Virus record (IMG/VR): IMGVR_UViG_3300042507_005008
Span: 1-47,909 of that record
Direction: 5' to 3' (one strand)
Length of the DNA: 47,909 nt
From: a virus
Numbering within the stretch: the first letter of the stretch is position 1; each line of letters opens with the position of its first letter. Shown here piece after piece: positions 1 through 34,596 of this stretch. Both the position numbers and the translations under genes were made by a program. The notes beneath the pieces are model-generated. The model was not told the origin of the DNA. It did no database searches and worked only from the letters and a program-made list of their open reading frames with translations.

Positions 1-90
1 GAGAGTGGAACAATGACACTAAGTGCTGTAAATGCTTGTGGAGAAGGATCTCAATCAAACGGCGTTATTGTACCAGCATCGCCTTATTAA
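1..90 (+). CDS. 3' end of a rightward FnIII/Ig-like protein (partial)
   Basis: Frame 1 is open from the left edge to a TAA at 88-90 and encodes 29 residues ending in NGVIVPASPY. The segment around LSAVNACGEGSQSN resembles the last strands of a fibronectin type III or Ig-like domain, in which aromatic-rich or AVN-type strands precede a Gly-rich turn. The stop codon overlaps the stop of the leftward gene ending at 87, so the two genes converge tail to tail with no spacer. Because the upstream part lies outside the window, its size and role cannot be judged. It is probably another virion surface protein, since FnIII-like modules are used by the neighbouring fibre genes. Confidence 0.55.
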   Translation, partial: ESGTMTLSAVNACGEGSQSNGVIVPASPY

Positions 91-1481
91 TCTTCAATAT
101 AAGATACTTGTAAAATGCCTGGTGAACCTGGTAATAAGCAGTTTCCACAATCGAGTATTGTGTCTCTAGCAGATGTTGGGATGTTGAAACTACCCCTATA
201 AAACGGTGATTTAGATACTATAATTTCATCTAGTCCGCCACTAAATCCTTCTGTGGTTAATCCCCATCCATCAGATGATGAAAAATCATAGCCGTCAGTA
301 CGTGGATATGCCCCTATAATTAGATAGTCTGAATTTAATACTAGACTAGCGTTATGATATTGTTCGTCTTTTTCTATACCATTAATAAAACAACTAATAT
401 AATTGTTTGATCTTGACACTGCTATATGAGTAAAGGAAGATGTTGATACAGACAAACCGGTAGCGATTACTATATCAAATAAATTCCCTTTATTACCAGT
501 AGCAAATGCTATCTTATTAGCATGATGATATATTTTCCAGCTATGGTTGTTGCCGGATTCTGAAGAACAAGACAAAAGTGTCTGTGGAGATGTTGGTGAT
601 CCGCTGTTGGGCTTAAACCATAACGACAGCGTAAAATTACCATTTAACGACCAAGATGATGATTCTTTTTGAACCACATGCATGTGAGGAAACGTTGTGA
701 ATCCTATATGTGGATTGTTTGTTAATGTAGTGAGAGTGCCTGGGAATTGCCAATAATTAGAAAAAGCTCCGCTTCCTAGAACTCCGGTAGCAACATAATC
801 AGTAGCATAAATAGTGTCTATTCCATAACAACCAGTAATAAGAATAAAATTTCTATCAGTACTATCCAAATTAGTATACATAATTAAGTCGCAATCATTG
901 TCCACTCCACCAGAAGGAATAATAGAATTGCTTAGAGTAAATTCTCCTGTACCTATATTATTAACAGCAGCTACTTGAAAATGATAGGTATTATTATTAG
1001 TTAGAGGTACTGTTCCTGAGATTGCAGATCCCACCCCATCAGAATATGTAATCCAAGAAATATCTCCTGTCTGTTTATATTGAATGATATAATCAGTAAT
1101 TGTTGATTTACCATTATCTGGTTCTGTCCAAGATAAAACCCCTAGTGAATCTTTGTCTCTAGCAAAAACACTACTGATAGTTTTGGGCTCGCTTGGTGGA
1201 AGTTCATAACACAAAACATCACACGTCAGATAAGATAATGGAGAAGTCCTATTGGGTTCTAAATTATAACATAATATATCATTTACTAAATAAGAATGAT
1301 ATACTTTCTCTGATAGCACAGAATTATAGGTTAAAATATCAGCATTAAGATAGCTAACTATAGTTTTAAGAGTTGGATCTGTATATGTTAAAATATCTGC
1401 TGATAAATAATCATGAATGACATGGTAGATGTATTTTTCCGCATATTTTGTTGAGAAACCATAAAAAGGAGGTAGAATCAT
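87..1481 (-). CDS. FnIII plus laminin-G-like virion surface protein with four 20-residue repeats
   Basis: A 464-residue protein, last gene of the leftward late operon. Residues about 24-103 are four consecutive 20-residue repeats of the type YLxADILTYN; the last two change ILTY to ILCY or VLCY. Residues about 105-190 look like one fibronectin III domain (SWTEPDNGKSTITDYIIQYK). Residues about 195-440 resemble a laminin-G/concanavalin-like lectin domain (FTLSLWFKPNSG, then IAVSRSNNYISCFINGIEKD and a final GGLDEIIVS), a fold that often binds sugars. The C-terminus has DCGNC. The ATG lies two bases after the stop of the collagen-like gene, so translation is probably coupled. The likely role is a fibre tip or decoration protein that binds surface glycan; this is inferred from domains only. 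No signal peptide or membrane segment is visible. Confidence 0.8.
   Translation of the reverse strand: MILPPFYGFSTKYAEKYIYHVIHDYLSADILTYTDPTLKTIVSYLNADILTYNSVLSEKVYHSYLVNDILCYNLEPNRTSPLSYLTCDVLCYELPPSEPKTISSVFARDKDSLGVLSWTEPDNGKSTITDYIIQYKQTGDISWITYSDGVGSAISGTVPLTNNNTYHFQVAAVNNIGTGEFTLSNSIIPSGGVDNDCDLIMYTNLDSTDRNFILITGCYGIDTIYATDYVATGVLGSGAFSNYWQFPGTLTTLTNNPHIGFTTFPHMHVVQKESSSWSLNGNFTLSLWFKPNSGSPTSPQTLLSCSSESGNNHSWKIYHHANKIAFATGNKGNLFDIVIATGLSVSTSSFTHIAVSRSNNYISCFINGIEKDEQYHNASLVLNSDYLIIGAYPRTDGYDFSSSDGWGLTTEGFSGGLDEIIVSKSPFYRGSFNIPTSARDTILDCGNCLLPGSPGILQVSYIED
1173..1412 (-). repeat. Four tandem 60-bp coding repeats
   Basis: Codons for residues about 24-103 of the preceding protein form four in-frame units of exactly 60 bases. 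Each encodes a Y-L-x-x-D-[IV]-L-[TC]-Y core followed by a variable ten-residue linker. DNA divergence between units is clear, so the repeats are old or under protein-level rather than DNA-level selection. Confidence 0.7.
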
Positions 1482-1483
1482 GA

Positions 1484-2653
1484 CTATGGTCCGCTATTAG
1501 ATGCTGTTGTATCTCCAGACAGTATAATAACATTATTAGCGACCTTCAGAAGTGTACCTATAGAATATTGGCCTACTAAATTTTTATGACTATATCTATT
1601 AGCTATTGTGCCAGAAAATCTTACTTGTCCGGAATTCAATTGAACAACTAAACAATTAAAGCCTGTAGTAATTTCGTTTGAAAAACTTACATTAATAAAA
1701 GATGAATTGTAGTCTAATACCACAATTCGACCATTATCTGATTGTGTAATCGTATAATTATTTGTGTTTTGTATATTTAATGCGGCGGAAAATCTACTAA
1801 GAGAACCATCTCCCAAATACTGATTTCCATTTAAAAAATTATCTCCAGAAATTCTTGCAAAATCACCGGTACTATATGTAGAAATGGTGCCTAAGCCTAA
1901 AAATGTTCTTTGTAATGCTGTGGTTTCCTGAGACAATAGATTTTTACTGGCGTTGCTGATATTAATCGTACTAAATAAACCAGAAGAAGTGCCATAAAGC
2001 AAGGTGCCTGATATAATATTAGCTCTAGAAATACTATCCAAAATAGGGCTATAGGCCTGGGTATACTGTCCTATATTTAATCCGGTAACACCGATAGTCA
2101 ATCTATTAAAATCGGGATCCTCGTAATTAAGCTGTATATAAGAACCAGCATCAAGTAATGCGTCTACTCGATCATCTATAGTTTCTGATAAATTGGTAAT
2201 ATCCGAAGGAATATGATTATGAGATATTGGTGCATAAACACCGCTTGTGGTTGGGGATGCTATTGTAATTAATTGATTAATAGCATCTATATTAATAGTT
2301 GTACCGCCGCTACCAGTAATAGCTATAGTATGGTCATAGCCGCTTAAGCTAAATTGATTAGTAAAATCTGTAAGCCTTAAAATAGAAATTCCTGATCCCG
2401 GAGGACCAGGTAAGCCACTAGGACCAATAGGTCCAATTCCACCGCTCGGTCCAACGGGTCCAACTAAACCAATTCCCGGAGGGCCTTGTGGTCCAGTAAA
2501 ACCCTGTAAACCTCTTTCTATAGTAATTATCGAAATAGTATTAATAAAATTATCATTAATATTAACAGTAGACAAATTAACTTCTGTATCATCAGTAGAT
2601 TGTCTGATAATTAGTTGATTGTTAATAGGTTGTGCTATATTGAGTATTGCCAT
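1484..2653 (-). CDS. Collagen-like tail fibre protein
   Basis: A 389-residue protein. Its first 45 residues form an attachment-type module resembling the N-terminus of the giant gene upstream: short beta-rich segment, then ITIERG leading into collagen. Residues about 47-90 are Gly-X-Y triplets (GPQGPPG, GPVGPSG, GPIGPSG), which would fold as a collagen-like triple helix and thus imply a trimer. The rest is beta-rich and includes SHNHIPSDITNLSETIDDRV, a pattern frequent in phage tail fibres, and an end domain of unknown fold. The ATG is two bases beyond the stop of the giant gene, so they are co-translated. The likely role is a trimeric fibre. Collagen-like repeats are well known in phage fibres; the receptor is unknown. 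Confidence 0.8.
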   Translation of the reverse strand: MAILNIAQPINNQLIIRQSTDDTEVNLSTVNINDNFINTISIITIERGLQGFTGPQGPPGIGLVGPVGPSGGIGPIGPSGLPGPPGSGISILRLTDFTNQFSLSGYDHTIAITGSGGTTINIDAINQLITIASPTTSGVYAPISHNHIPSDITNLSETIDDRVDALLDAGSYIQLNYEDPDFNRLTIGVTGLNIGQYTQAYSPILDSISRANIISGTLLYGTSSGLFSTINISNASKNLLSQETTALQRTFLGLGTISTYSTGDFARISGDNFLNGNQYLGDGSLSRFSAALNIQNTNNYTITQSDNGRIVVLDYNSSFINVSFSNEITTGFNCLVVQLNSGQVRFSGTIANRYSHKNLVGQYSIGTLLKVANNVIILSGDTTASNSGP

Positions 2654-2655
2654 AA

Positions 2656-5600
2656 TTATGCTTGTCTATTAATAGTAATAGTATCACTACCAGAATCATC
2701 ATATACTAAAATATCAAATGAACTGATAATACCAGGACCCCAATTTGCTCCATTACTAGAGGACAATGTAATTGTAGTTAATCCGGTTGTAGAATTATAT
2801 GTGTCTTTATTTGTATTGGGCTGGAACCTATTAAATCCACAGTATGTCCAATTGCCTAATCCTGTTCTATCTATTTTAACCTTCATGCGTTGTGATAGAG
2901 CCGGATAAACGCCTCCATCTATATTTAATGTTACAGTCCAGGAATTTGATGATTGTCCCCAAGATACTGTGCTACTAACTATTGATAGTGGTTTACCAAC
3001 ATTCATAATACAATCTTTATAGAAAGCTTTTGGTCTCCAGCCAAGAACAAAAATAGGAGCCAATGGATTTTCTCTTGTTATTACACGATAATTATATTGA
3101 CCATACAAAATATTAGGTCTACCAGATATCAAAAAGTCAAAATTGCCTTCTGTATTACTATCTATATTAGCTGGCATGATCTTAATATTATCTTCTATAG
3201 TGGAATGAATTTTAATAGAATCATTAGTAGAGAATCCTCTGTATATACCGGATGGGGTTGAACCGCCACCAGCTATAAGCACTAAACCTGTATTAGAAAT
3301 AGAGTTAACCGATAAAATAGTAGCTTTATCTTCCATAGTATAGAATACGCTACTAAATCTATCACTATATTGTGATGTAATTTTATCTAGAATAATATTT
3401 GTTGTGGCCTCGGTCATAGATAAATTATTATGTCTAATATAAATTAGGTTACCACTTAGATCTATGTTGGTGATTCTTGTTACTGGTTTAAGATCAATAT
3501 CTAGATTAAGACTTTGACTACCATAATTTTTGCTAAATACTATTGGACGAGTACCCATATTAGGAACAGACAGTCCGCCAAGATCAAAATTACCACTAGT
3601 TAGACCAGTAATAAAAACATCTAGTATTTGTGTTGGCTGGAATGGCGGAGTGTATGTTACAGTAACTTCTACTAAGTTATTTACATCGAATACTTCATAT
3701 ATATCTGTTTGACCTGGAGAGCTATTTATACTTGCTATCCAGTCATTGCGAACAACTAATGAGGTTGGAGCAGAATAGTATCCTGCTGTTTTTGTAAAAT
3801 CTGGGATATTGCCGCTGTTGTTGAATTTACGAGACACGACACTATTAAGTATAATTCCAGAAATACTAGGCAAATACGAACTCGAAGACCATATGCTACC
3901 ATTATTACCAGAAATTGATAATAAATATGGATAATTAGTATATCCGTCTGGACATAACCCTCCTATACAAATATCTGTTGGTATATACCCGCCAAGGGCT
4001 AGTCCACGAATTCCATACTGTCCATTCAGGCTATTGTAGTTTATAAGTTCTCCACTATAAATATTAAACGTATCTGGATAGGATATTGTTACAGCTGGGA
4101 ACGAGTTTTCCGTTGGTATATCTCCTAATAATCCAGCTTTATGTACCCAAGAATATATGCTAGGCGTGGCTGTTGGATTAGTGTTTGGATCGAATGTTGG
4201 AAATGCACCACCGGCACAACTATAATCTATTCTAAATGTAGCTCCTTTATTATTTGCGCTTTGTGCCAATGTGCTTGATGTTAGTCTGATGGGAGCACTA
4301 TTCTGGATAGCCACAGAAACTGATCCGCTTTGAATAGTACTATTACTGACTAAATTGGTAACAGTATAATAGGCAGTGCCAGCCCTTTCGTTTTGCGGCT
4401 TGTTTCTTTCAATAATAGAATCTCCATAAGCTAATCTAGAATTTAAAGAAAATGTTGTTCCGTCGTCTCCATATGAACGATTAGCTAGTGGTGGAGGGTC
4501 CGTGATTTCTATATAAATTGGGGGTAATGATACCCCACTAAATCTTACAAAACCTGTCTCTGGACATGTTGTATATTTAATTTCTGCTAGTCTAGATGTA
4601 TCATCAACAACATTATATCTCAGGCCCGTTCCAAAAGTATCAGATGATGCAAAATATCCCCCAGTAGGTATATAGCCACTAAAACTTGGAGAAACAAAAC
4701 CATATATACCATATCTACCTTGAAGATCAGCAGCAACCCTGCCATTACCTAAAACACAACCCTCTGTACTAAGAGTAACATCACCAACATTAAATACTGT
4801 TGCTAAATCAGCTATTGCTTTAACAACAGGAGTTGAGATAACAATCTCTGCTATTCCTGTGTGTGGGGAAGAAATACTTTCGTTGCTCTTAATATAAAAT
4901 GAATTTAATGGAACATGATTAGGTAAGCCGGTCAGGGATGTAGCTTTTTTAACATAATAATTACCATCATTATTATTCAACTCTAGCATGTTGAAATAAA
5001 TAAAAGAATTATTTTGTATATTAGTATATTGAGCACTATGGCTGGCCACTGGATGTAATACAAGAAAGTCTGTTGAGGTACTGTCTGCGCCACTATACAT
5101 AACAGGAAATTTTGCACAGTGCGGGCTGAATGGTATGGTTGAATAACATGTCATTTCTAAAACTGAAGCTTCTGGTTGTTTAACCGTTATACCACCCATA
5201 GTAATCTTGTCATTACCAGTAGATGGTGTGAATATAGGATCGGCATTTTCAAAATATAAAGTCATATATATATTAGGCGCCATTGGTGTAACAGAGGTGC
5301 CGAATATAATTTCTTGTGTCTTTTTCTTGCCTCTCGCGTCGATAATTGTGAGATAGAATTTATCAGGATACTCAGAAGAACCACTTGGTGGATAATATGA
5401 TACAGACCCTTGTATGGTCAGTACTCCGCTATTCACATTGTCGTAGTGTGGAGCATTGAATAAGTTGCCTTCTGGTCCAGAATATTGTATTGAATATGTT
5501 AAACCAGTTGGTAAAGATCCGCTAGTAATTATACCGCTTAAACCAGTTGGTATTGGGCATACAGATCTATTAGCTGGTCCAAATTTATAGACATTGAAAT

Positions 5601-8600
5601 AAGAATCGCATCCTGGTTTAATAGCTGTTTTAATATTAAACTCTGGTGCCGACCCTTGAACAATATTCGGAACGGGATGGTCCTGTGTGGTCGGGATATA
5701 AGTAAATACAGACTGAATACTATCAGATGGTTCTATGTAAATAGGATTATTTGCTAAATTAGTATCTATAGCAATGATAGAGAAGTCTAACTCTCCAGAG
5801 AGTAGACAGGATGGGTCTCCACTAAAGCTAAAATTCCAAGATTTGTCTGCTGTATTAAATAATGGCTGTGTTGCTATGCATTTATGTAGCTGTGAATTTG
5901 GAGGCAAGTCTGTATTGTATAATGGATCTAGTCTTGGATCATAACCACTACACACAGTTGGTGTTCCAGAAAGAAAAATAGAGGGCGGGTTTTGTGGGGA
6001 TTGAAGTCCAAAAATTGTTTTGAAATTAAGCTGCCATTTTTCTCCTTGTTGAACAATTAAACCTGATTCTGGTGTGAATGGAGTATTTTGATTTCCATTA
6101 TTTATTCCAGTGATTTTAATCGGTAAACCTTCTACAATATCTAAGTTGTTATTTTGTAATTCAAGTAGATTTACTTTAGCTACGGCTGTAATTTTATCAT
6201 CGGCTATTCCTTTGCATTGTAGAGTTAAGGATGGGTATTGAGAATTAGTATCTACAATCAATCTGGCATCCCATTTATCAATTAGTTTATTACCAGTAGC
6301 ATAGAATTCCCATATATTTAAATTACTATCAAATTGCATAGAAGCTTGATTCGGAGATATAAATAAGCTATTGTTGCCAGCAAAAGTAATTTGATTCGAC
6401 GCCTTGTTGCCAGAAGCCTTGTCAACTATATCTGCGTTTATAAAAAATTCATTATTTGGAGTAGTATATATATTTGATTGAATATAATTAATAGACTTAG
6501 TATGTTTATAAGTTATATTAAATGAACCAGTAATAGAACTAGCAATCTGATCGTCGGCTGTAAATTTAATATTATATGTTCCCGTATTAGCAGCATATCT
6601 GCCATAAATATCGGGCTTGCCTTCTAATAATACAATCCAATAGTTTCCATTTTCATTATATCTGTATCTAACTTTATAGGATAAATCTATATTAGAATTA
6701 TCTCCGATAGATGGAGTATTATATAATTTAACTCTGGGTGGCTTATCTGGTCTGTGTTTTATTACGCCTTCTTGTAGTGCAAATTCATAGGTCCAGGGTT
6801 GATCAAGACTAAATATACCTGAACTACTAGAATTGTAGTAATAGCTAACCATCATAGGTCTATAAAAAGTTAAATTAAAGTTATAAGTGCTTGAGCTATA
6901 ATTTACAGTCGATGGTGATCCATCGACGTATAGATACTGATTAACATTATAAGAGAATTGACCACCCGCAATATATTTTGTCTCAGATAAATATGAGCTA
7001 TCTCCAGTATTTTTAGGAATTACTGTAGCAATATATCTGTTTGTATCTCCGTCCCAACTAATGCTAGTTGTGGTATTAATACCAGGAGCAGAAAAGAATG
7101 TGCTGGGATTAGCGACTTGTTCATATACAGGAATATAAAAAGATATATTTTGTAGCTGGCTAATATCTACATAATAATCAGTTTTTACTTTATTAAGCGT
7201 TGGAACAAACGGGGGTCTATCATTTAAACTGCTCAAAATCTTTATCGTTCCGGTGCCGACAGCAATAGTTTCGCTAGTATAGAAATCAGCAAATCTAATA
7301 ACAGGATTCCAAATGCCAGTGCTGAATGGTATTGTGCTGCCTCCACCACCTGCTAATCGATATCCTTGAACACTAATAGTAGATGCGTCTCTAATATCAA
7401 TATCGTAACTAAAGTCATTTGGTGTTCCAAAAAGAGTTATACCTTGATTACCAGGAAAGTCATTAAGCAGATCCAGTCCTGTGGTATCGAAATTTAAAAA
7501 CCATTCGGTGTCTGACGTTGTGAAGTATCCAGTAGGATATGTTGTATTAACAGATTTTTTATCTTTAATAATCATATTAACTGTTTTATAGCTATCTCCA
7601 GTTTCATCTCTAGCTATAATTGTTAAAGGATATACTCCTGTTTTATTCATTGGTATAATTTCTACTCCGATATCCCAGCCAGAACCAGCTCTATAACCAT
7701 ATAGCAATGGAGAGGCATTTGTGAGTGTTCTGTAGGACGCCAATCCAGATATATAAATTTTTGGTATATTGACTGAAGCTGGAGTAACAAGCATTGGCGA
7801 ACCACCGCTGGTGCTAATTCGAATTGTCTCTCCTAAAGAATCGGAATAGATTGTAAAATTTTCTCCAATATTATCGAATAACATGCCTGTATTGTTGTAT
7901 ATAGACAGATTAGTAATTCCTATTTTGTCTTTATTGTTATAAATAATATTGGTAGTATCATTATTAAATTGTAAAGCATAGCCAGAATAGATTGGTATAT
8001 TTTTCACTAAATGGAATAAATGAGTCCATTTTTTAGTACTTGAATCAAAGTAATTAATACTATTTTGCACCAATTGGGTATTTAGACCTACTGCTAAAGA
8101 CTGAGTAATAAAAGTATTATCAATATTAGGATACAGATGGGTTTTAATATTATATTTGCTAGGAATAATATATACTAAACCAGATGAGCCAACTAAAGAA
8201 CTATTATAGTTGGGACTAATAGATATTTTATTGCTATTAATAAAATCTGTAATTCTATAAGTTGTACTAATAGACGATGCAACTGAATCAAAATCAAAAT
8301 AATAAGAATCATTAGAATTTAAAGAAGCAAACGATGATCCCAAGTATGGAGTGATAGTGACACATAATTTATTAGAATTACAAATTTTTTCGTCCGCAAA
8401 TACCGCATAAACACCGGTTAGTGGGCTATTTGAAATGACAGCATCCACATCTTGTGGCCATCTGGCAGTATACCCTCCATAAGACTGTAAGTAGATATTA
8501 TTGTAGTTAATTAAATCAAATGTACCAGAGTAGTGAGGTATAAATGAAATCGTACCAATGTTTGGTAAAAATCCAGTTCCAGTGCCGAATGGTAACAGAT

Positions 8601-11600
8601 GACGAACCGTATTTTCTCTTAAGCTTGCATATTGGTAGTCATATATACTGCTGGGGATACTTAATGATCCATCCAAAGATATACCAGTAATAGAATATAA
8701 TTGATTTACTGGATTAATTTTTTGTATAAATCTTGCATAACCAGATGAAACAGGCATTCGATTTAGATCTTTAATACGCAGCTGTTCATTTTCCAAGCAG
8801 TAGCTTTTCACAGAACTAAGATTATCTATAACTATTAAATTACCATTATAATAAATTGTATTGTTTTTATTATATGGTTTATTAGTATTACAATACTTTG
8901 TACTAGTAGATATAGATGGTAATATATAAAATGAATTAGATAATGGTTGATTATTACGAGGATAATATAGCTTATCAGTAAATATTGGTATTGCAGAATC
9001 GAGCAGTAGGCCTGGAGTATTAACTGTGTTTTCTACGTAAGTATTTAATTGTAGATAGTTAAAATTACTTGTGGTATTGCCATTTAATTCTATTGTAATT
9101 GTATCAAATCTTGTAACAGGAATAGTGATATCAAGGTTTCCAGATAAGCCGTTAGTTCCTGTTGTGAATATTGGAGTAACACCAGAGACAACTCCAAGAT
9201 CCGCAAGCTTATCAATAAGAGTTTGTTGGGAGTATGTGATTTTTGTAATACTGAATCCGGAATCTTCCGACGATGTTTGTATACCTCCAAAAATTTTAAT
9301 AGTATTGGTATTGTGTCCTAAGTACAAAAATTGTAACATTTTATTAGAACCACTAGTACTAATAATATCTGTAATATACCATCTTTCTGGTGAGCCAACG
9401 CCTTTCATGTTAAGATATGGTATATTATTTATGTGATTAGTAAAACCAGTAGAATAAATATGATAAAAATCGACATATCCAATATCGGTTGGTTCCGCTC
9501 TTCTTACTGTTCTAATACCACTACTCCACTGTTGATTACCACTATTAAAAATAGAAGCATAGCCTATTCTAGTATCGTTAAGTGTTCCCGTAGTAGATAT
9601 GATCTTATGATATCTGGGAATAATACCAGTAAAAGAGTAGCCGGAATTATAGTCTAAATATTGATGTCCTGTAGTCTTAGACAAATTGTCATTATAGTTC
9701 AAAATAAATCCACGATCTAGTCTATTGGTCAGATTAACATCCAAATAACAGGTACCAGAAGAGGATGCAGCAAATATATCTGTTATAAAACTTAGTCGCT
9801 CTTTATTTTCTGGTTGTAGAACAGCTGCTGATCTTTCGAGTAATACAAAATCTTTATCTGGAACATCGTCGATATTTCTAATTGATAAATTTTCTTTAAA
9901 TACTTTGAAGCCAGTGTTATATGTAGCATTATGATCCCAAATCATAGAAGGCGATAGTGGCTGAAAATTACTAAGACGAATATTATCAAAAATAGACACA
10001 ATTCCAGTTGGTAAATTCAAAGATAGAATTTTTGTATCTTTACGATATTCGAACGTAATATTGGTATATGTTGAAGAAAATTCTTTATCCAATTTTCTAA
10101 CATCATAAATAATTTCGTGATCATGGAACAATGAACCAAAAAACTTAAAACCATTAGTCATATATGTACCAGAAACAATACTATCTAAATATTCATCACT
10201 TTTTAATAGATACCTAGCATTGTCTGATGAGACAACTTTTTGACCGCTAACACCAATAATATCAAACAAATAATTTTTGGGTAATCTTGCACTATTAGTA
10301 TTGTATACAGAATTAAATTTAATTGGTAATCTATTTACATAGTCGGGACTCTTGATAATTTGTTCATGGTTTCTGTCTAGATTTAAGCGTATAGAACCAG
10401 TATGAGTAACAACCCTGTTAGACGGATAAAGGAATAAATTTCTAACCTTTATTGTGTTAGATGTTGAGGAAAGTACGTCTGTGTATGTATCGGTGCGTGG
10501 AAATAAAGCGTTTGCTTGATTAGACAATGCTTCGTATAGATATACATAGTCATTAATTCTTAAATCTTTATTGAAATCTTTATTTGAAGTAATAGTGATA
10601 TCATTGGCCGCAAATGATGTATAAAATGTTGCTACTCCAGTAACATACTGAGAACCAACAAGATCATCGTGTACAACCATTCCATTAATAATAGAATTTG
10701 GTATATTGACAGGGCAATCTCCAGATGATAAACCCACACTATTGTACAGTGATTCCTCTGGAAAATAGTTATCATCTGCTGGAGCAATACCAGTGTACAC
10801 AAGAAGACCAGAAGTAGAAGCCCGGTCATAAATATTGCTTAAACGTATAGCATATTCGTTTGTATATGCGTAATATGGCACCAGTTTACCCCAGCTGTAG
10901 TAGAAGTCTGGTTCCGTAAAACTTAATCCTGTAGGTCTATTTTCTAAATTGTCTTCATAGTATCCTAATGAACCATTATTGACTTCTGTTGCTGTATACG
11001 AGTATACTGTTGGATATTTTAATACTATTTGATTGATAGTACCAGGAAATAAAATATAGGCCGATCCACTGTGTGCTAGAATAGCATAGTCATGAACCAA
11101 TCTATCGTTGTTTTCGCAAAGCAGTTCTTCTTCTAATAGTTCAGCAAATATTTTGCCATTATTTGGATATATTTTTGTTGTGTCTAATAATTCATATCTA
11201 TTAGACAATTCTATCCTAGAACCATTTAACTTTTCTGTTTCTGGTATTAATCCAAAATTATCTTCTGTAGATAAGATAGCATATTCGAATGGGCTACTAT
11301 TATAAAAATATCCAGTATAATTTCTATCATCAGTAATAAGTTGAGTTGTATCATTAGATCCAATTCCGTTTACATATAAAATAGGATTATTGATATGTTC
11401 TAAAAATGTCCAACTATCATAAGCATGTAATAAATCAGATCGTGCATAGTCTATATTAGAAACAAATAATCCTTCATTATCATCATCTGTCGGAGGATTA
11501 ACAACTCTTAGTGGGTTGTAAACAATTCCTGTCGGGAGTAGTTCGATATTTTCTCTAAGATTGCGACGAATCCTAAAGGGATATGTGCTAAACCAAACTC

Positions 11601-14600
11601 TTTCATCAACAATGATGCCATTTATTTTTTCTTTATTTTCTGTTACGATTGAATAATTATTTTCAGTGGTAAAAAAAACATCTATTAATGTGACTGGATG
11701 TGTTATATATTCAAAATTGCTTTCATTGTCCCCGATAAGCGTATCGACTTCAGAAGATAGTGTATTTTCTAATTTTTCATCGAACAGCTTAGAATAGGAT
11801 ATCTTCTTAGACCATGCCACAGACTTTTGTGTATTATCTTTATATGCCAAGTAAGATAAATCATCTTCTATTTTTAGATCATCGATTGTTCCTTCTTGTT
11901 CAACCTTAAAAGAAAGTTGGGGAATTGAATATTCATGGTCTAATGCGTCATTATTTTCTGTTAAAACAAGACCCTTTGCTTCCTGTATAAGTCCTCTGCC
12001 CAAAATAATACTAAAATCACTAATTTCTTTTGCTCTAAGATTGGTTCCAAAACACTCGCTTAAGTTTTGCTCTCCTAAATATTGTCCAGTAAATACTGCA
12101 AAATCTCTATATGGTATATAGATATTATCAAAAATAAATAAATTACCACTAATTGGAGTTCCGCTTAATACTGTTGGACGATATGTTTTAGTGACTTTGG
12201 TGTTGCCAGATAATCCTATGCTAGGATCTGAAATAGGCAAAGATCGAGCAAAAACATTTGTGCCGATACCAAATAACTGGGGAGCACCGCTAAGTGTAAC
12301 AATATTACTGAAAGTCTTAGTCGTTGGTTGAGCATGACGGAATAGGTCGCTGCCTTTCATAAAAATTCCAGACACGGAATTAGACGCAGAACCAAAGAAA
12401 ATATAAGGATTATAACCACCATTAACTAATAATTCTCCAACTAATGTGTCCTTACTATTTTCTAGTACGGTATTTTTAGCAAGTTGAATAGAGTTGATCT
12501 TTAGTATTTCACTAATTCCAGAAGCTAAAACATTGGATGTTATAACTGGATTGCCAGAAACTTCTATAATAAGATTATTGAATGCATACAAACCAGAAGC
12601 GTCCGTGGCTTTAATATCTATTGAATACGATCCAATGTCGCATTGATCAGGGGTGCCGCTTAATACAAGATTAATAGCATCAAAAGATAACCATCTAGGT
12701 AGTGGGTGTCCACCCTTAATATTTGCTGAATATTGCAATACTCCGCTGTCTGGTTCCACAAACATATTACCTGGTAAACTATATACAAAAACATTATCGA
12801 TAGGAATTCCAGTAGGTTCTAATACAATATTAACTTTTGGTATCTCATTGAGATTTTGTACATAAACATATAGAACTTGTTCGTAAAAAGAAGAAAAGTT
12901 TATATTTTGAGGTGTGCATCTTACTCTAATCGGGATAATATTATTATTCTCATAGTCTAAAGCTTCATTAGTATATAAAAAGTATCTATTTTTATCTCTA
13001 GTAATTCTAAATTTATTATTAAATTCAGAAAACGATCCATTAACTAACTCATAATTCATAGGAGCAGAGATAAAATCTAGTGGTTGATAATTTGTATCAA
13101 AAAGTCTTATACTTTGATAATTATCAATATTATATCTAACATAAACGCCGGTATGAACATTAATATCTGATAGAACTGAGCTATAATTACATGCTAAGTC
13201 TGTTCTGGCATATATGTCTACATTGCCACTATTATTAGTAAACAAAGGAGCAATTTCAATAGACTGACCATCTATGAGACGATCTATTCTTGTGGCGGTG
13301 GTGATAGAAAACGACGAATCACCATAAGCGTCTGGTTCATATACAAATCCAGAATTCTGTAATCCTATAAGAGATGCAGCCAATGGATTATTAATGTCTC
13401 CAGCTCCTCCGTCATTAACAAATACAATATTTTCTCCTGTATTAAATATTGGAGATGTCCTGGTTTGAGCACCAAGAATATTTAGTGCCTCTCCATCAAC
13501 CCAAAGCTTATTGCAGCTTTTAAATAAATGAGCAGAAAAATCATCTATGGTAATAGATACTGGTCCAGATATTATCGTTGGATTAATGTCTATCGTTTTT
13601 ATTGGAGCATTGATATTTATAGTGCTAGAGGTTATGCTAGTAATCACCCTACGGTAATTATAAATATTATTAGAGAAATCCTTATATTGAATTTTGATTG
13701 TCATATTTGGTTTAATAAAAGTATGCAAAGCATAGCCATACTGATTAACTAAATAAGCAGAATTATATTGTATAGATGTTCCTTGAATAGCTGCTGGAAT
13801 ATTAGTGTTAAAGAACTTATCATATCCACTCGGAGCATTAACTACCAACTTAGCGCCAGAAGGTAAACCATATTTTACAGCCATCCATTTTGGTGCAGTA
13901 ACAGCGACGGAATTAGAATTAGGTGCTCCTTGAACAATATATCTACCAGATGGCGGCAAATACATTGATGCAGAGGAAAACTGACACTCTAGCATCGCTC
14001 CGGCTACGGCCTGATGAGGTTTTTGTGTTTGAATAACAAAAGTATTATTTAAAGGATGTTGTGTAAAAGATTCATAATATCTTGGTCTATGAATGTCTAA
14101 TACTAAAGATCCGTCATGACTTTTTTCGAATACGCCAGTAATAGCAACGTTTTCTGGAGTATAAAAATAATAGGGATATAGATATCTTAAATCAACGCTT
14201 AGATTTTGTGCTGGCGGAGATTTAGCCCATACATATTGTGTTTTTGTAGCTTCTTTACCAGATGACATATCCTGATAAGTCCACTTATGCACATGTCTGC
14301 GTAATTGAGAATTATTATAAGCTTCTGTTTTATAACCAATATTCGGTACTGTGGTAGTATTAATAATATTTGAAATATTGTTGGGATCACGATAAGTAGC
14401 ATTATTAATAATACCACTAGTAAAAGAAAAATGAGCCACCCCAGAACTTAAGCCTTTATTCATTAATAATTCGATATTATATGCAATAGTTTTTTCTTTT
14501 GGTAGTTGTATGACTGGAGATAAAGAAATCCAGCTTCCGTGTGTTTCTATGCCTTTCAGGTATGCTGCTACAGTTGAATATTGACCATGTTCTAAAACAG

Positions 14601-16797
14601 TAGTACCTGTTGTTGTGCGGAATGCACCAAAAGCAATCTGGTTCTCTAGTTCTGCTAAACCATATGATCCAAGAGCGATAGAGTTTTTGCCTTTGGCTAT
14701 AGAACCATAATTGAGCGCAACAGAATTGATACCACTTGCCGTATTGTAGGATCCAATTGCCGCAGATTCTGTTCCATAAACTTTATTGTGATCTCCTATA
14801 GCAATAGAATTTTCTGACTCAATAATATTAAAAGTACCAGCAGTTAGTGAGGATAAGCTACTGCTGCCAATAGTATTATCCTCTCCAATAACTAAATTGA
14901 CATCATTAGTTATTTCTATGTCTCCGTCAACTCTCTGTTTAATGTTCGATGAAGTAATTTTTCTAGCTGGTGAAACACTATCTGTAAATTTAGGAATATA
15001 ATTATTTGTTCCTTCTATATGATCGAATGTTACATTGTTATAAGAAAAACTACCAGTAATATTACTAGCATTTCTGTAATAAGCGCCGTCTCTATCGTCT
15101 AAAAGATCTGCATTAAGATTGTTGACTTTTATACTATTCCCAGCTAAATCAAAAGGAGGAGAAGACGGCGGGGCTCCATTAGATAAAAATCTGATTTGAC
15201 CAACAACATCAATTCCTTGTAGAAATTTCTTTAGTGCATTGATTGTTTGTTCTTGATTAGTATTGATATAAATCTGATCAGCGATTTCTCTAAATAATAC
15301 TGTTAACTTATCTCCTTCTAAATTTTGAGTAATATAAATAGTGCTAGCAGACCCGCCATTGATATCGTCTTGAAAACTATTTCCATTGCCGTCAACATCG
15401 CCAACAGCACCAGAACCATAAATATTGGTTATAAGTCTTAATTGATTTTCTGTTGGGTAATATGCTAAAATACCAGTTTTGTTAGCAACTGTAGCACCAT
15501 ATTGAAACGTAAATCCTCGTGGTTCAGACGGTAGTATATTAGGACTATTTAAACCAAATAATGGAAGATTGTCATATAGACTTGTTTCTCCACCAGATAC
15601 AGCTAATCCACCAGCAACTGTTAAAAATCCATCCATCCTATCGCTTTCACTAGCTTTTAATGGTCTAAATCCTAGAGAATCTACGATATCGTTATAAGAA
15701 GCATAATAAACGCCATCTATAAGACCTTTAGCGTTTATACGAAATTTGGTTCCGTATTGATCACCAGAAGCGTGTAGGTTTGGTAGTCTGTCTAAAGAAA
15801 GAACACCGGTTAAGTTGGTAGAATCTCTATAGAAACTACCTTGTAAACCATCTAACAAATCTGCATCTAAGCCAGACCCAGATCCATCGTTGCCGGGATG
15901 CCATGGAGTATATCCTAAAATTGATAAAATATCTAATGCCGTTAATGATAATCCACTAACTACTCTGCCTTTAGAATCAGTAATAACTTTCGTGTATGTT
16001 CCAGCAACGCCTGTTTCCGATAGTGATATAGAATTTTCTTCAACTAAAATATCAGCAGATGCACCTATTTGTAATAGAACAGATCCATTTGGAATAGATA
16101 ATTGTCCACCACCAACTAAACCAGAGCCAGCCTCAATGGTGATACTAGATCCACTAACTACGATAGTACCGGTATTAAGAGGTAATGATGTTAGTTTTGT
16201 CCCATTATAATATATAAGTTGGTTTAAATTAAATATGTCATTATTAGTTCCACCTTTGCTAATTGGCACCATACCAGAAATAGCACCAAGACTCAGTTCA
16301 GCAGTTCTAGCTATGGTATTATCTACTACGATTTTATTACTAGAAACCGTTAAGCCTTCTCCAATTTTAATATCCAAAATAGCAGTATTATTATTTACTT
16401 GTGTTTTCTGAAGACCAGTACCAGGAATGATACCTGTAATAGCATTGCTGTTAGCAGAAGCTAGATCTACAATATCTTGGATAGTATAAGACGAACTAGC
16501 TAATTTGTTTCCGTCATATGATATCAAATATCCACTATTAAAACTAGTATTATTAGTGCCTCCGCTAGATACAGGTAAAATACTAAATGTCAAACCATCT
16601 TTACCAGCGGGGCCTGCTGGGCCAACTAATCCTCTTTCTCCTTGCGGTCCTTTTTCGATAGTTACCAAGTCTATGGAACTAGTAGTCAGATCAGATACAA
16701 TAATATTTGTTGTTGTTATCGTACCTTCTTCGGTTCGCAAACTTACTAATAAGTAGCGATTTGGTTGAAATTGTTCAGATACTGATACTATGCTCAT
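2656..16797 (-). CDS. Giant modular virion/fibre protein (about 4,713 residues)
   Basis: One uninterrupted frame of 14.1 kb, nearly a third of the window. The ATG at 16797 is chosen because it forms an ATGA overlap with the upstream stop. Modules in order: attachment-like N-terminus (1-48); Gly-X-Y collagen stretch (about 50-68); two GGTNN fibre repeats (about 75-200); two phage-fibre ADLLD units (about 305 and 565); YadA-like left-handed roll repeats such as NSIAIG and NSIALG (about 655-720); then thousands of residues of beta-rich sequence with Ig/cadherin-like units, for example WLSFDAINLVLSGTP near 1370 and later PTGL/SGTP units. The C-terminal kilobase is again Ig-like. It has few cysteines and no recognisable enzyme domain or transmembrane segment. 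It is probably a very long fibre or tail-surface protein; a tape-measure role is unlikely because the sequence is beta-rich rather than helical. Confidence 0.85.
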   Translation of the reverse strand: MSIVSVSEQFQPNRYLLVSLRTEEGTITTTNIIVSDLTTSSIDLVTIEKGPQGERGLVGPAGPAGKDGLTFSILPVSSGGTNNTSFNSGYLISYDGNKLASSSYTIQDIVDLASANSNAITGIIPGTGLQKTQVNNNTAILDIKIGEGLTVSSNKIVVDNTIARTAELSLGAISGMVPISKGGTNNDIFNLNQLIYYNGTKLTSLPLNTGTIVVSGSSITIEAGSGLVGGGQLSIPNGSVLLQIGASADILVEENSISLSETGVAGTYTKVITDSKGRVVSGLSLTALDILSILGYTPWHPGNDGSGSGLDADLLDGLQGSFYRDSTNLTGVLSLDRLPNLHASGDQYGTKFRINAKGLIDGVYYASYNDIVDSLGFRPLKASESDRMDGFLTVAGGLAVSGGETSLYDNLPLFGLNSPNILPSEPRGFTFQYGATVANKTGILAYYPTENQLRLITNIYGSGAVGDVDGNGNSFQDDINGGSASTIYITQNLEGDKLTVLFREIADQIYINTNQEQTINALKKFLQGIDVVGQIRFLSNGAPPSSPPFDLAGNSIKVNNLNADLLDDRDGAYYRNASNITGSFSYNNVTFDHIEGTNNYIPKFTDSVSPARKITSSNIKQRVDGDIEITNDVNLVIGEDNTIGSSSLSSLTAGTFNIIESENSIAIGDHNKVYGTESAAIGSYNTASGINSVALNYGSIAKGKNSIALGSYGLAELENQIAFGAFRTTTGTTVLEHGQYSTVAAYLKGIETHGSWISLSPVIQLPKEKTIAYNIELLMNKGLSSGVAHFSFTSGIINNATYRDPNNISNIINTTTVPNIGYKTEAYNNSQLRRHVHKWTYQDMSSGKEATKTQYVWAKSPPAQNLSVDLRYLYPYYFYTPENVAITGVFEKSHDGSLVLDIHRPRYYESFTQHPLNNTFVIQTQKPHQAVAGAMLECQFSSASMYLPPSGRYIVQGAPNSNSVAVTAPKWMAVKYGLPSGAKLVVNAPSGYDKFFNTNIPAAIQGTSIQYNSAYLVNQYGYALHTFIKPNMTIKIQYKDFSNNIYNYRRVITSITSSTININAPIKTIDINPTIISGPVSITIDDFSAHLFKSCNKLWVDGEALNILGAQTRTSPIFNTGENIVFVNDGGAGDINNPLAASLIGLQNSGFVYEPDAYGDSSFSITTATRIDRLIDGQSIEIAPLFTNNSGNVDIYARTDLACNYSSVLSDINVHTGVYVRYNIDNYQSIRLFDTNYQPLDFISAPMNYELVNGSFSEFNNKFRITRDKNRYFLYTNEALDYENNNIIPIRVRCTPQNINFSSFYEQVLYVYVQNLNEIPKVNIVLEPTGIPIDNVFVYSLPGNMFVEPDSGVLQYSANIKGGHPLPRWLSFDAINLVLSGTPDQCDIGSYSIDIKATDASGLYAFNNLIIEVSGNPVITSNVLASGISEILKINSIQLAKNTVLENSKDTLVGELLVNGGYNPYIFFGSASNSVSGIFMKGSDLFRHAQPTTKTFSNIVTLSGAPQLFGIGTNVFARSLPISDPSIGLSGNTKVTKTYRPTVLSGTPISGNLFIFDNIYIPYRDFAVFTGQYLGEQNLSECFGTNLRAKEISDFSIILGRGLIQEAKGLVLTENNDALDHEYSIPQLSFKVEQEGTIDDLKIEDDLSYLAYKDNTQKSVAWSKKISYSKLFDEKLENTLSSEVDTLIGDNESNFEYITHPVTLIDVFFTTENNYSIVTENKEKINGIIVDERVWFSTYPFRIRRNLRENIELLPTGIVYNPLRVVNPPTDDDNEGLFVSNIDYARSDLLHAYDSWTFLEHINNPILYVNGIGSNDTTQLITDDRNYTGYFYNSSPFEYAILSTEDNFGLIPETEKLNGSRIELSNRYELLDTTKIYPNNGKIFAELLEEELLCENNDRLVHDYAILAHSGSAYILFPGTINQIVLKYPTVYSYTATEVNNGSLGYYEDNLENRPTGLSFTEPDFYYSWGKLVPYYAYTNEYAIRLSNIYDRASTSGLLVYTGIAPADDNYFPEESLYNSVGLSSGDCPVNIPNSIINGMVVHDDLVGSQYVTGVATFYTSFAANDITITSNKDFNKDLRINDYVYLYEALSNQANALFPRTDTYTDVLSSTSNTIKVRNLFLYPSNRVVTHTGSIRLNLDRNHEQIIKSPDYVNRLPIKFNSVYNTNSARLPKNYLFDIIGVSGQKVVSSDNARYLLKSDEYLDSIVSGTYMTNGFKFFGSLFHDHEIIYDVRKLDKEFSSTYTNITFEYRKDTKILSLNLPTGIVSIFDNIRLSNFQPLSPSMIWDHNATYNTGFKVFKENLSIRNIDDVPDKDFVLLERSAAVLQPENKERLSFITDIFAASSSGTCYLDVNLTNRLDRGFILNYNDNLSKTTGHQYLDYNSGYSFTGIIPRYHKIISTTGTLNDTRIGYASIFNSGNQQWSSGIRTVRRAEPTDIGYVDFYHIYSTGFTNHINNIPYLNMKGVGSPERWYITDIISTSGSNKMLQFLYLGHNTNTIKIFGGIQTSSEDSGFSITKITYSQQTLIDKLADLGVVSGVTPIFTTGTNGLSGNLDITIPVTRFDTITIELNGNTTSNFNYLQLNTYVENTVNTPGLLLDSAIPIFTDKLYYPRNNQPLSNSFYILPSISTSTKYCNTNKPYNKNNTIYYNGNLIVIDNLSSVKSYCLENEQLRIKDLNRMPVSSGYARFIQKINPVNQLYSITGISLDGSLSIPSSIYDYQYASLRENTVRHLLPFGTGTGFLPNIGTISFIPHYSGTFDLINYNNIYLQSYGGYTARWPQDVDAVISNSPLTGVYAVFADEKICNSNKLCVTITPYLGSSFASLNSNDSYYFDFDSVASSISTTYRITDFINSNKISISPNYNSSLVGSSGLVYIIPSKYNIKTHLYPNIDNTFITQSLAVGLNTQLVQNSINYFDSSTKKWTHLFHLVKNIPIYSGYALQFNNDTTNIIYNNKDKIGITNLSIYNNTGMLFDNIGENFTIYSDSLGETIRISTSGGSPMLVTPASVNIPKIYISGLASYRTLTNASPLLYGYRAGSGWDIGVEIIPMNKTGVYPLTIIARDETGDSYKTVNMIIKDKKSVNTTYPTGYFTTSDTEWFLNFDTTGLDLLNDFPGNQGITLFGTPNDFSYDIDIRDASTISVQGYRLAGGGGSTIPFSTGIWNPVIRFADFYTSETIAVGTGTIKILSSLNDRPPFVPTLNKVKTDYYVDISQLQNISFYIPVYEQVANPSTFFSAPGINTTTSISWDGDTNRYIATVIPKNTGDSSYLSETKYIAGGQFSYNVNQYLYVDGSPSTVNYSSSTYNFNLTFYRPMMVSYYYNSSSSGIFSLDQPWTYEFALQEGVIKHRPDKPPRVKLYNTPSIGDNSNIDLSYKVRYRYNENGNYWIVLLEGKPDIYGRYAANTGTYNIKFTADDQIASSITGSFNITYKHTKSINYIQSNIYTTPNNEFFINADIVDKASGNKASNQITFAGNNSLFISPNQASMQFDSNLNIWEFYATGNKLIDKWDARLIVDTNSQYPSLTLQCKGIADDKITAVAKVNLLELQNNNLDIVEGLPIKITGINNGNQNTPFTPESGLIVQQGEKWQLNFKTIFGLQSPQNPPSIFLSGTPTVCSGYDPRLDPLYNTDLPPNSQLHKCIATQPLFNTADKSWNFSFSGDPSCLLSGELDFSIIAIDTNLANNPIYIEPSDSIQSVFTYIPTTQDHPVPNIVQGSAPEFNIKTAIKPGCDSYFNVYKFGPANRSVCPIPTGLSGIITSGSLPTGLTYSIQYSGPEGNLFNAPHYDNVNSGVLTIQGSVSYYPPSGSSEYPDKFYLTIIDARGKKKTQEIIFGTSVTPMAPNIYMTLYFENADPIFTPSTGNDKITMGGITVKQPEASVLEMTCYSTIPFSPHCAKFPVMYSGADSTSTDFLVLHPVASHSAQYTNIQNNSFIYFNMLELNNNDGNYYVKKATSLTGLPNHVPLNSFYIKSNESISSPHTGIAEIVISTPVVKAIADLATVFNVGDVTLSTEGCVLGNGRVAADLQGRYGIYGFVSPSFSGYIPTGGYFASSDTFGTGLRYNVVDDTSRLAEIKYTTCPETGFVRFSGVSLPPIYIEITDPPPLANRSYGDDGTTFSLNSRLAYGDSIIERNKPQNERAGTAYYTVTNLVSNSTIQSGSVSVAIQNSAPIRLTSSTLAQSANNKGATFRIDYSCAGGAFPTFDPNTNPTATPSIYSWVHKAGLLGDIPTENSFPAVTISYPDTFNIYSGELINYNSLNGQYGIRGLALGGYIPTDICIGGLCPDGYTNYPYLLSISGNNGSIWSSSSYLPSISGIILNSVVSRKFNNSGNIPDFTKTAGYYSAPTSLVVRNDWIASINSSPGQTDIYEVFDVNNLVEVTVTYTPPFQPTQILDVFITGLTSGNFDLGGLSVPNMGTRPIVFSKNYGSQSLNLDIDLKPVTRITNIDLSGNLIYIRHNNLSMTEATTNIILDKITSQYSDRFSSVFYTMEDKATILSVNSISNTGLVLIAGGGSTPSGIYRGFSTNDSIKIHSTIEDNIKIMPANIDSNTEGNFDFLISGRPNILYGQYNYRVITRENPLAPIFVLGWRPKAFYKDCIMNVGKPLSIVSSTVSWGQSSNSWTVTLNIDGGVYPALSQRMKVKIDRTGLGNWTYCGFNRFQPNTNKDTYNSTTGLTTITLSSSNGANWGPGIISSFDILVYDDSGSDTITINRQA

Positions 16798-17234
16798 GTT
16801 ACACAGTTTCCACAATCATCTTGTAAATCCGTATCGCATTGAAATGCGTCTGTGTCAGGTACATTACGTGGTACTAGACCTATTCCACCTTGTAAAATTC
16901 TAAATACTTTTCTGCCGCCACCAGAATATAAGTCATTGGGTTCTTGTAATTCTAGATCATATCTTGCAGAGCCGAACGTATAGTTTAAGGTTTCGGAAGC
17001 AGGGATTTTTAGAACAATTTTACCTAATAATGGATCTATAGTAAATTCATATTGAGAATTTCTTGTATTAGTGACAAATGTTCGAACGGTTGGAGAAGTC
17101 TGGTCCTCTATCCATCTTAATCTAGCACACCAATTCGTTAAATTAATTGGAAGTTGATTATCGTCTTTATATTCGAAAGCAATAACAAAAGCGGTTCCCT
17201 TTTCTATAGAAAAATTGTACTCTGCTGCTGGCAT
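16794..17234 (-). CDS. Small BppU-like virion protein, paralogue A
   Basis: A 146-residue protein beginning MPAAEYNFSIEKG. It is clearly paralogous to the 133-residue protein encoded at 34195-34596: both share the MPAAEYNFSIE start, a YKDD-x-x-x-PIN segment, WCARL, YDLELQ and a final FRI/IRI strand. The N-terminal beta-sandwich pattern (sequence describing a 'quasi-energy' strand followed by PINLT and an ARL/AR strand) is common in phage baseplate-upper or fibre-linked proteins. The C-terminus has a short Cys-rich tail (CDTDLQDDCGNC). Its stop overlaps the ATG of the giant gene (ATGA), so the two are co-translated and possibly partner: a plausible job is to attach the giant fibre to the virion. 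That partnership is inference. Confidence 0.65.
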   Translation of the reverse strand: MPAAEYNFSIEKGTAFVIAFEYKDDNQLPINLTNWCARLRWIEDQTSPTVRTFVTNTRNSQYEFTIDPLLGKIVLKIPASETLNYTFGSARYDLELQEPNDLYSGGGRKVFRILQGGIGLVPRNVPDTDAFQCDTDLQDDCGNCVT

Positions 17235-17259: not shown

Positions 17260-17778
17260 CTATGAATAAAAATATCGTGATCTATCACTATATGTTTGCA
17301 AATATCTTGCATCAAATTTATTGCCAACAAATGGGCTAAGTACAGCGCGAATAGCTGTTGCTTCTTTAACATCCCAATGGGAAGTTAATTCGTCGTATGC
17401 TGCGCATGGTCCTTGTTCTATAATAAGTTTTAAACCAGCAAGGCTTCCTCCAACACTTAAACTGGCTGGTCCTAGAGCTGCTCTAATGCCTTCAAGTGCA
17501 GCCTTTGTGCGCAAACTACTTTGATCAAATAAACAAGCGGACTTCAGCGATACTAGGCTAATAAAAATATCGTCATTATTTGATGTTGGATCAGGAGTGA
17601 TGGATGGTGTTGTGACATCTATGGTATACTTGGTGTCTAAATTAATATCAAATTGAACATATTTTGCCGCTACGGCTATTGCTTGAAGCATTCTTTCATC
17701 AGAATAAGTCTGATTTGCTTCATCAACATCGTTGATAAGGGTTCGTACTATGATAGGAAGCTCTATTTGCCATGACAT
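17260..17778 (-). CDS. Head-tail connector-like protein
   Basis: A 172-residue, mostly helical protein beginning MSWQIELPIIVRTLINDVDE. The pattern of an N-terminal IVRTLIND helix, a YSDERMLQAI...AAKYV helix, a DDIFISLVSLKSACLFDQ helix and a C-terminal GPCAAYDEL segment followed by LSPF matches proteins I recall from aquatic phages placed near head-completion or neck genes, but this is from memory and was not searched. The start has a good ribosome binding site (AGGGG eight bases upstream). It is the first gene of the left late operon and is preceded by a TATTATAGTA promoter-like box. No enzymatic motif is visible. Confidence 0.55.
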   Translation of the reverse strand: MSWQIELPIIVRTLINDVDEANQTYSDERMLQAIAVAAKYVQFDINLDTKYTIDVTTPSITPDPTSNNDDIFISLVSLKSACLFDQSSLRTKAALEGIRAALGPASLSVGGSLAGLKLIIEQGPCAAYDELTSHWDVKEATAIRAVLSPFVGNKFDARYLQTYSDRSRYFYS

Positions 17779-20073: not shown

Positions 20074-20651
20074 TATTATTATACGATAAAGAAACGGCTA
20101 TTATTACATTACCAAAAACTGGTAGCACCTCTTTATTTGAAACATTGTGTCGCATTCCGTATAGTGGTGTTTTTTGCATCGGGCCTAGTGGGGATGACCC
20201 CAACTACTATGATCATCATTCCGTAATATTACCACAAGCACCTTTTGAATGGAGAGTTTTGATAGTAGTTAGGAATCCTCTTCAAAGGTTTGTGAGCTTA
20301 TGGGGACACCTGGCCAAAGAAATGGTGTTAAATATGGAAAGTCCGCCAACCGTCGGAGAATTTGTGGATATTATTAGTAATAATGATCATGATTTTTATT
20401 TTTATCAATGGAATCAGACTAAAATTTTAGAAAAAGCTAATTATAAATATTCTATAATAAAAAGTGAACATATGGAAGAAGAGTTGTTAGAAAAAGAAAT
20501 TTTACATAATAAAGGAGACCTTCTTAATCTAAATGTTTTTAATATTACTCAAAAGAGTAAACCATATGATCAGATACTCGATAAAAAAATGATAGAAAAA
20601 TTAAGATGGTGGTGGGAGCCTGATGCTATTAAATTTGAGTATGAGATCTAA
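20070..20651 (+). CDS. Sulfotransferase family protein
   Basis: A 193-residue protein with both PAPS-binding signatures: the 5'-phosphosulfate loop PKTGSTS at residues 15-21 and the 3'-phosphate motif VVRNPLQRFVS at 66-76. These are established hallmarks of sulfotransferases, which move sulfate from PAPS onto hydroxyl or amino groups of glycans or small molecules. At 193 residues it is shorter than many family members (usually 250-300), so a reduced acceptor-binding region is likely. Its ATG overlaps the HAD stop (ATGA), so translation is coupled. It ends one base before the convergent leftward stop at 20652. The acceptor is unknown; a virion or host surface glycan is possible. Confidence 0.85.
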   Translation: MILLYDKETAIITLPKTGSTSLFETLCRIPYSGVFCIGPSGDDPNYYDHHSVILPQAPFEWRVLIVVRNPLQRFVSLWGHLAKEMVLNMESPPTVGEFVDIISNNDHDFYFYQWNQTKILEKANYKYSIIKSEHMEEELLEKEILHNKGDLLNLNVFNITQKSKPYDQILDKKMIEKLRWWWEPDAIKFEYEI

Positions 20652-21869: not shown

Positions 21870-21870
21870 A

Positions 21871-33952: not shown

Positions 33953-34195
33953 TTATGGTGTTCCGCAGTCTATCTCATAGTTATCGATAAAATTACTTAA
34001 ATAAACATCTAAATCAGTAATTTGAGATGTTGTTATGGTTCCAGTAAATGATACTGGTGGTAGGTCTGATACTAAAATTTTTTCAGTATTAACAACTTCC
34101 AAATAAATATTAGGAATATCTGCTATAGAGCCGCTTTCGATCTCTATAGATGTCAATGGTTCACTTTCAATTTCTACAACATAGATATAGCTCAT
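33953..34195 (-). CDS. Small fibre-linked protein
   Basis: An 80-residue protein. ATG 34195 is chosen because its first base is the last base of the upstream TAA (TAATG), indicating coupled translation; a TTG nine bases earlier is the alternative. It begins MSYIYVVEIESEPLTSIEIE and has an IVSDLPP-like segment and SQITDLDVYLSNFIDN, the latter resembling the SQITDF/DLD linker of phage fibres. The early part resembles the N-terminal modules of the giant and collagen-like proteins, so it may be a stand-alone attachment module. Ends DCGTP. Confidence 0.6.
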   Translation of the reverse strand: MSYIYVVEIESEPLTSIEIESGSIADIPNIYLEVVNTEKILVSDLPPVSFTGTITTSQITDLDVYLSNFIDNYEIDCGTP

Positions 34196-34596
34196 TATGT
34201 ACAATCCAATAAAGTGTCAGTTTTACTTTTACGCTTCAAAATAGTTACAGTACCATATATAATTCTAATAACGTATTTTCCACCTTCACTATAAAAGTTA
34301 TCGTCTGACTGCAATTCTAAGTCATATTTAGCATTAGTAAATGAAAATCCATTGGTGGTGTTAGCTGGAAATAATAAAGTTAATTTTCCATTAGCACCAT
34401 CAATAGTAAATTTATATACACTATAATCAATGTTCTCTGTTGTAAAAACCTGTGTTACATTAGCATTAGTCTTCCATATTAGCCGAGCACACCATCCTGT
34501 GATATTGATAGGACTACCGCTATCGTCTTTATATACTAATGCCAATTTAAAAGAGCTACCTTGTTCTATACTAAAGTTATATTCTGCTGCTGGCAT
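34195..34596 (-). CDS. Small BppU-like virion protein, paralogue B
   Basis: A 133-residue protein paralogous to the one at 16794-17234: MPAAEYNFSIEQG, YKDDSGSPINIT, GWCARLIW, AKYDLELQ and YVIRI align by eye. The divergence is substantial, so the duplication is old. It is the first gene after the terminator at 34652-34683 and opens the fibre operon; the next gene overlaps its stop by one base. In both copies the next gene encodes a fibre-related protein, suggesting a common adaptor role. Confidence 0.65.
   Translation of the reverse strand: MPAAEYNFSIEQGSSFKLALVYKDDSGSPINITGWCARLIWKTNANVTQVFTTENIDYSVYKFTIDGANGKLTLLFPANTTNGFSFTNAKYDLELQSDDNFYSEGGKYVIRIIYGTVTILKRKSKTDTLLDCT

Follow-up and report, generated by a model that had tools for sequence, protein, structure and literature searches.

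A 4,713-residue phage protein that is probably a long, ring-anchored virion fibre and not a tape measure

The 47.9-kb window, the whole stretch of DNA analysed here and probably a fragment of a virus genome, carries on its minus strand a single uninterrupted frame (2656-16815 in our ORF analysis of the window) that makes up a 14-kb gene. Phage proteins as long as its product are usually tape measures. Read from the ATG at 16797, which overlaps the end of a 146-aa gene, the product has 4,713 residues; homologues begin at the aligned position and, on this alignment, the ATG is likely to be the true start. The first-pass annotation, made from the letters of the window, had described a single 14-kb gene of about 4,713 residues, and we obtained the same length and add the strand, which had not been stated. 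A 128-kb contig (G001) encodes the identical protein with zero differences, and an identical ORF was found in one further contig as far as that contig reaches.

Full-length collinear homologues of about 4,440-4,690 aa, 33-46% identical to the window protein, are present in five further distinct phages, G002 (a record of 177.9 kb), G016, G050 (223 kb), G051 and G052 (230.7 kb); G049 has the same giant gene as G050. Identical copies together with open full-length homologues at this level of identity have no explanation other than conserved protein coding. Its length alone might suggest an assembly or frame artefact that fused separate genes, but six distinct phages, recovered from different samples, agree in length and order, which refutes this, and we give the idea practically no weight. 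Pairwise identity among the six giants is 33-59%. Conservation is strongest in residues 1-600 and persists to the C-terminal end, interrupted by variable segments around 1000-1150, 1600-1800 and 4350-4480, and 15 cysteines, all past residue 2000 (2028-4653), are kept in at least five of the six. As the conservation is collinear from end to end, the giant evolves as a single unit and not as a shuffled mosaic. We found no match to it among 50,697 annotated phages, nor in a pattern-based scan of GTDB genomes.

The phages that carry the gene belong to a family of large aquatic bacterial viruses that has not been cultivated. Terminase matches extend to at least 131 IMG/VR contigs of up to 232 kb, with 75-100% identity among the 80 matches listed. 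No close cultured relative was found, the terminase being about 24% identical to that of Microcystis phage MaeS and the capsid protein 21% to that of Bacillus phage G, whose major head protein it matches by tblastn at 5e-7. We considered the 'Moraphages' (PMC12619734) as a described lineage but do not claim that name for these phages. Near the terminase, at 42775-43764, lies a sugar-nucleotide gene that by eye resembles a GDP-mannose dehydratase and is present in most relatives.

A separate tape measure of 5,741 aa was identified in G001 (C1:107902-125127), the contig that bears the identical giant gene, and we conclude from this that the giant is not the tape measure. The first 1,500 residues of the 5,741-aa protein match the PHROG tape-measure profile at 5e-25 and Pfam PhageMin_Tail at 1.1e-24, and the gene order in G001 runs from the giant's cassette through tail genes to this gene. 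All relatives whose contig extends this far have a counterpart, of 1,958-6,196 aa where complete, a range seen even among relatives with 85-95% identical capsid proteins (G001, L124 and L125). The tape measure of G001 and its homologues bear a repeated TDTVPAMLTPGEFVVN-type motif. Size is what speaks for the giant as a tape measure or other internal tail protein. Against this stand the separate protein, the low proportion of helix-favouring 15-mers (16% in the giant, 65% in the tape measure) and the absence of the giant from 18 of 25 relatives; we count this alternative as already refuted and its probability as very close to nil. Sheer size in a virion protein has precedent, since PHROGs holds other very long virion structural proteins, such as that of phrog_701, with 6,136 positions. 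The view that the protein is no tape measure despite its size was borne out.

What, then, is the giant made of? Domain searches returned fibre- and adhesin-type matches and no match to tape-measure profiles, and the N-terminal mosaic of collagen-like, GGTN, ADLLD and YadA-like segments proposed earlier was found in full (Table 1). The anchor at the extreme N terminus aligns with the N terminus of the downstream 389-aa collagen protein (hhalign 97.9% with the collagen included, 82.6% and 69.9% without it), with none of 200 column shuffles equally good. In the adjoining collagen-like run the Pfam Collagen model remains under its cut-off (11.1 vs 27.2 bits). GGTN motifs follow at residues ~79-83 and 182-186, the region of the first ADLLD repeat matches the tail fiber protein profile PHROG 8443 (1.7e-5), and a profile search for internal repeats detected no array besides the two ADLLD units. 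The YadA-like region matches trimeric adhesins in the PDB at E values of 0.002-0.5. Collagen and YadA-head repeats, both within residues 1-~730, are characteristic of a trimeric fibre or adhesin stalk; the C-terminal YadA membrane anchor (PF03895) is absent from the window, and the protein does not classify as a trimeric autotransporter adhesin. Names such as 'DNA polymerase' (phrog_22681) among the PHROG matches were disregarded, as that match falls on the collagen-type stretch.

Table 1. Features of the giant gene and its surroundings (window positions unless a contig is named)
Feature	Position	Strand	Remark
Giant gene, candidate fibre, 4,713 aa	2656..16797	-	Homologues and identical copies; frame open to TTG at 16815
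N-terminal anchor, residues 1-49	16651..16797	-	Resembles N terminus of downstream 389-aa collagen protein
Collagen-like run, residues 50-70	16588..16650	-	Seven Gly-X-Y triplets, seen directly
GGTN-type fibre repeats, residues 76-240	16078..16572	-	Invariant SGGTNNT and SKGGTNN
ADLLD-type fibre repeat 1, residues 302-361	15715..15894	-	Matches repeat 2 at 96.9%
ADLLD-type fibre repeat 2, residues 553-615	14953..15141	-	Related to repeat 1
YadA-like trimeric head repeats, residues ~635-723	14629..14895	-	Pfam YadA_head 5.5e-6, above cut-off
Cadherin-like and He_PIG Ig-like tandem, residues 1245-1415	12553..13065	-	Pfam He_PIG 3e-12
Strand-rich part, residues 1416-4713	2659..12552	-	Shared by six phages; no match to a known fold
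146-aa LtfC-like protein, candidate collar-ring subunit	16794..17234	-	PHROG 3304, 4.1e-5
133-aa paralogue of the LtfC-like protein	34195..34596	-	Directly after capsid gene
LtfC-like/P-domain fusions	L100:13036-13953; L089:15525-16910; L111:7904-8932; L114:4904-5908		
172-aa conserved protein, upstream slot boundary marker	17260..17778	-	Candidate head-tail connector
389-aa collagen-type fibre protein	1484..2653	-	Cassette gene; LtfB-like position
464-aa protein, FN3 and LamG/ConA-like lectin domains	87..1481	-	Cassette gene
HK97-type major capsid protein, lineage marker	34710..35720	-	NCBIfam 6.4e-5, under its cut-off

The remainder of the protein had been described as Ig/cadherin-like. This stands for the one tandem pair, which also matches dystroglycan (3.3e-4) and, by Foldseek, cadherins and SraP (about 1e-7); the remaining ~3,300 residues are strand-rich and gave no Ig match or match to any known fold. 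Structure prediction, suggested earlier as a check, was carried out on two pieces of roughly 1,200 residues, 1151-2350 and 3520-4713, and the AlphaFold models were poor (mean pLDDT 38 and 34). The cadherin/He_PIG pair was their only credible fold hit, and a fold search with the poor model of the C-terminal 1,194 residues returned no match, a result to which we give no weight. By residue propensity, 84% of the giant's 15-mers lean towards strand and away from helix, compared to 35% in the tape measure, in agreement with the description of a beta-rich protein that is not coiled.

The gene directly upstream, which overlaps the giant in the window and in L148/G050 is separated from it by a short gap, encodes a protein matching PHROG 3304, 'L-shaped tail fiber protein assembly'. 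After its family profile was enlarged with cultured homologues, it aligned with the T5-type LtfC family at 96.8% in hhalign (E 2.2e-10, 106 columns), and none of 200 column-shuffled controls did as well. On these profiles we take the 146-aa protein to be distantly homologous to LtfC over its full length. The relationship is visible by family profiles only: the single LtfC sequence of phage DT57C gave no relation, and the Pfam LtfC model hit two of the homologues under its cut-off (E 0.003 and 0.011). The family also matches a structural protein in the PDB (26dk, 5.8e-12). Homology to BppU was considered and set aside in favour of LtfC, there being no Pfam or PDB sequence match; the BppU N-terminal domain, the mark of a neck passage structure, was not found in the family. 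The protein is 65-77% identical to that of the window in the other carriers of the giant and 36-49% identical in non-carriers. Four of the non-carriers instead have the LtfC-like domain in one protein with a proprotein-convertase P-domain. The window holds a second, paralogous LtfC-like gene, and the pair suggests two rings or one mixed ring.

The order of the 146-aa gene, the giant and the gene for the 389-aa collagen protein is that of ltfC-ltfA-ltfB in T5-type phages, and the giant heads an accessory fibre cassette of 23-26 kb. We measured the slot that it occupies from the 172-aa gene, whose product is possibly a head-tail connector, to a 318-aa gene in the neck region; we call these small proteins 'neck gene' and 'connector' products from their place in the gene order, not from family matches. 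Among the 25 testable records, which include near-duplicates, seven hold 23.4-25.7 kb with the giant (six of them distinct) and 18 hold 1.2-4.2 kb without it. Occupied slots contain, in order, the giant, a collagen protein of ~385 aa, a LamG/FN3 protein, a second LamG-type protein and an Mtd_N/FN3/YHYH protein. Both the capsid tree (support 74/78) and the neck-gene tree (84/89) place the carriers in one group; the terminase tree requires two changes, because G002 falls elsewhere. This suggests a single gain or a few exchanges of the cassette, with resolution that is not strong.

At its N terminus the 464-aa cassette protein repeats an SYLxxDILxYN motif. A 1,279-aa fibre protein (24085-27924) contains an FN3 array, an LCCL domain and a weak F5/8 type C domain, which are animal-like and unusual in a phage. 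Three tandem, paralogous-looking genes (20652-24074; 418, 366 and 377 aa), two with cysteine-rich stretches, have no PHROG match. Two plus-strand genes at 18472-20651, conserved in G002, lie amid the minus-strand structural genes and by eye are HAD-like (533 aa) and sulfotransferase-like (193 aa).

Since the giant is not the tape measure, is strand-rich and uncoiled and has trimeric stalk motifs at its N terminus, it reads as a long fibre. We consider it probable that the protein is a trimeric, LtfC-anchored and extremely long virion fibre used for attachment, and not an internal tail ruler. This reading rests on the coding, the conservation, the stalk motifs, the one cadherin/Ig pair and the LtfC homology, and also on the gene order and overlap, the separate tape measure and the accessory slot. 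The stalk of collagen, GGTN/ADLLD and YadA-like segments would probably hold three chains together as a trimer, with the N-terminal ~48 residues of each inserting strands into a ring of the LtfC-like protein. The distal ~4,000 residues would form a string of beta domains stretching far from the particle, to a length that we infer to be of the order of 150-250 nm, and may bind host or matrix glycans. The 389-aa protein, with its similar anchor, and the LamG, FN3 and YHYH proteins could be companion fibres or tips. For the ring itself the neck or collar has about an even chance, the tail tip is less likely and the head somewhat less likely again. We picture the ring as a platform with exchangeable decorations, of which the giant is the most extreme found here. 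More tentatively, a neck- or head-mounted collar may carry a chain of ~0.5 MDa in trimeric form, with a largely unknown fold over the distal ~3,300 residues, as a very long, optional 'grappling' fibre system, a 23-26 kb cassette added to or lost from a conserved particle. The first-pass annotation had offered an extremely long fibre or a surface sheath; the fibre gains support from the strand-richness, the stalk and the separate tape measure, and for the sheath we found no positive evidence. Beyond that reading, the present analysis adds an LtfC-like partner in the collar, an accessory cassette and the comparison of occupied with empty slots.

Instead of a fixed ring set, the giant could form many whiskers along the tail or sheath, as in the hairy phage CBB, whose hairs of ~119 nm (PMC5259590) are comparable to the estimated length. 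The LtfC-like ring gene and the gene order favour ring-anchored fibres, and no gene has been assigned to the CBB hairs with which the giant could be compared; we regard whiskers as unlikely. Slightly less likely still is a monomeric capsid-surface fibre like T4 Hoc. The position downstream of the capsid gene and the Ig/cadherin domains would suit it, and Hoc reaches 1,174 aa, among the largest given (PMC10385173), but the collagen and YadA-type stalk indicates a trimer, and Hoc attaches through its C-terminal domain, whereas the shared anchor here is N-terminal. An accessory adhesin on the infected cell, outside the virion, would fit an accessory gene with adhesin-like domains; it is improbable given that the gene lies within the structural module beside an LtfC homologue and that, with a highest 19-residue hydropathy mean of 1.52, the protein has no clear membrane segment.

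A ring-anchored giant fibre takes LtfC-type anchoring beyond the T5-like phages, into actinophages as well as a large uncultivated aquatic lineage, and means that a phage can spend a cassette of 23-26 kb on an optional attachment apparatus. Occupied and empty slots in otherwise very similar particles make its cost and benefit testable, and structural work has a clear target in the ~3,300 residues that keep their order in six divergent phages and have no recognised fold.

Among known systems, CBB resembles this one in its long extra appendages. T4 Hoc is likewise an optional virion fibre with Ig-like domains, but monomeric and anchored to the capsid by its C terminus. The lactococcal 936/TP901-1 neck passage structure is an accessory collar with a ring-forming, BppU-like beta-sandwich, trimeric fibres and carbohydrate-binding tips (PMC6669499); that structure unites ring and fibre in a single protein of ~500-900 aa. 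Closer are Streptomyces phages such as Belfort (gp31-gp32; Stanwilliamsviridae), in which the same small beta-sandwich-type protein overlaps, by four bases, a collagen and lectin-like fibre (the lectin by eye) between the capsid and head-to-tail adaptor genes, although that fibre has only 499 aa and its function is putative too. In T5-type DT57C, LtfC forms a dodecameric ring around N-terminal strands of the fibre protein LtfA, in which a trimerisation helix begins at residue 40 (PMC10713586), and the genes run ltfC-ltfA-ltfB with a one-base ltfC/ltfA overlap. Here too an LtfC homologue overlaps a long trimeric-type fibre gene followed by a second fibre gene, and the ~48-residue anchor of the giant precedes its collagen run. 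The differences are the length (4,713 against 1,076 aa in LtfA), the position before the neck genes where the Ltf module follows the tail-tip genes, the extra lectin/YHYH genes and an unrelated phage lineage. As its anchor lacks similarity to LtfA (no sequence match, hhalign 0.1%), the giant is LtfA-like in position and not a member of that family; it is an oversized new version of an already known fibre type.
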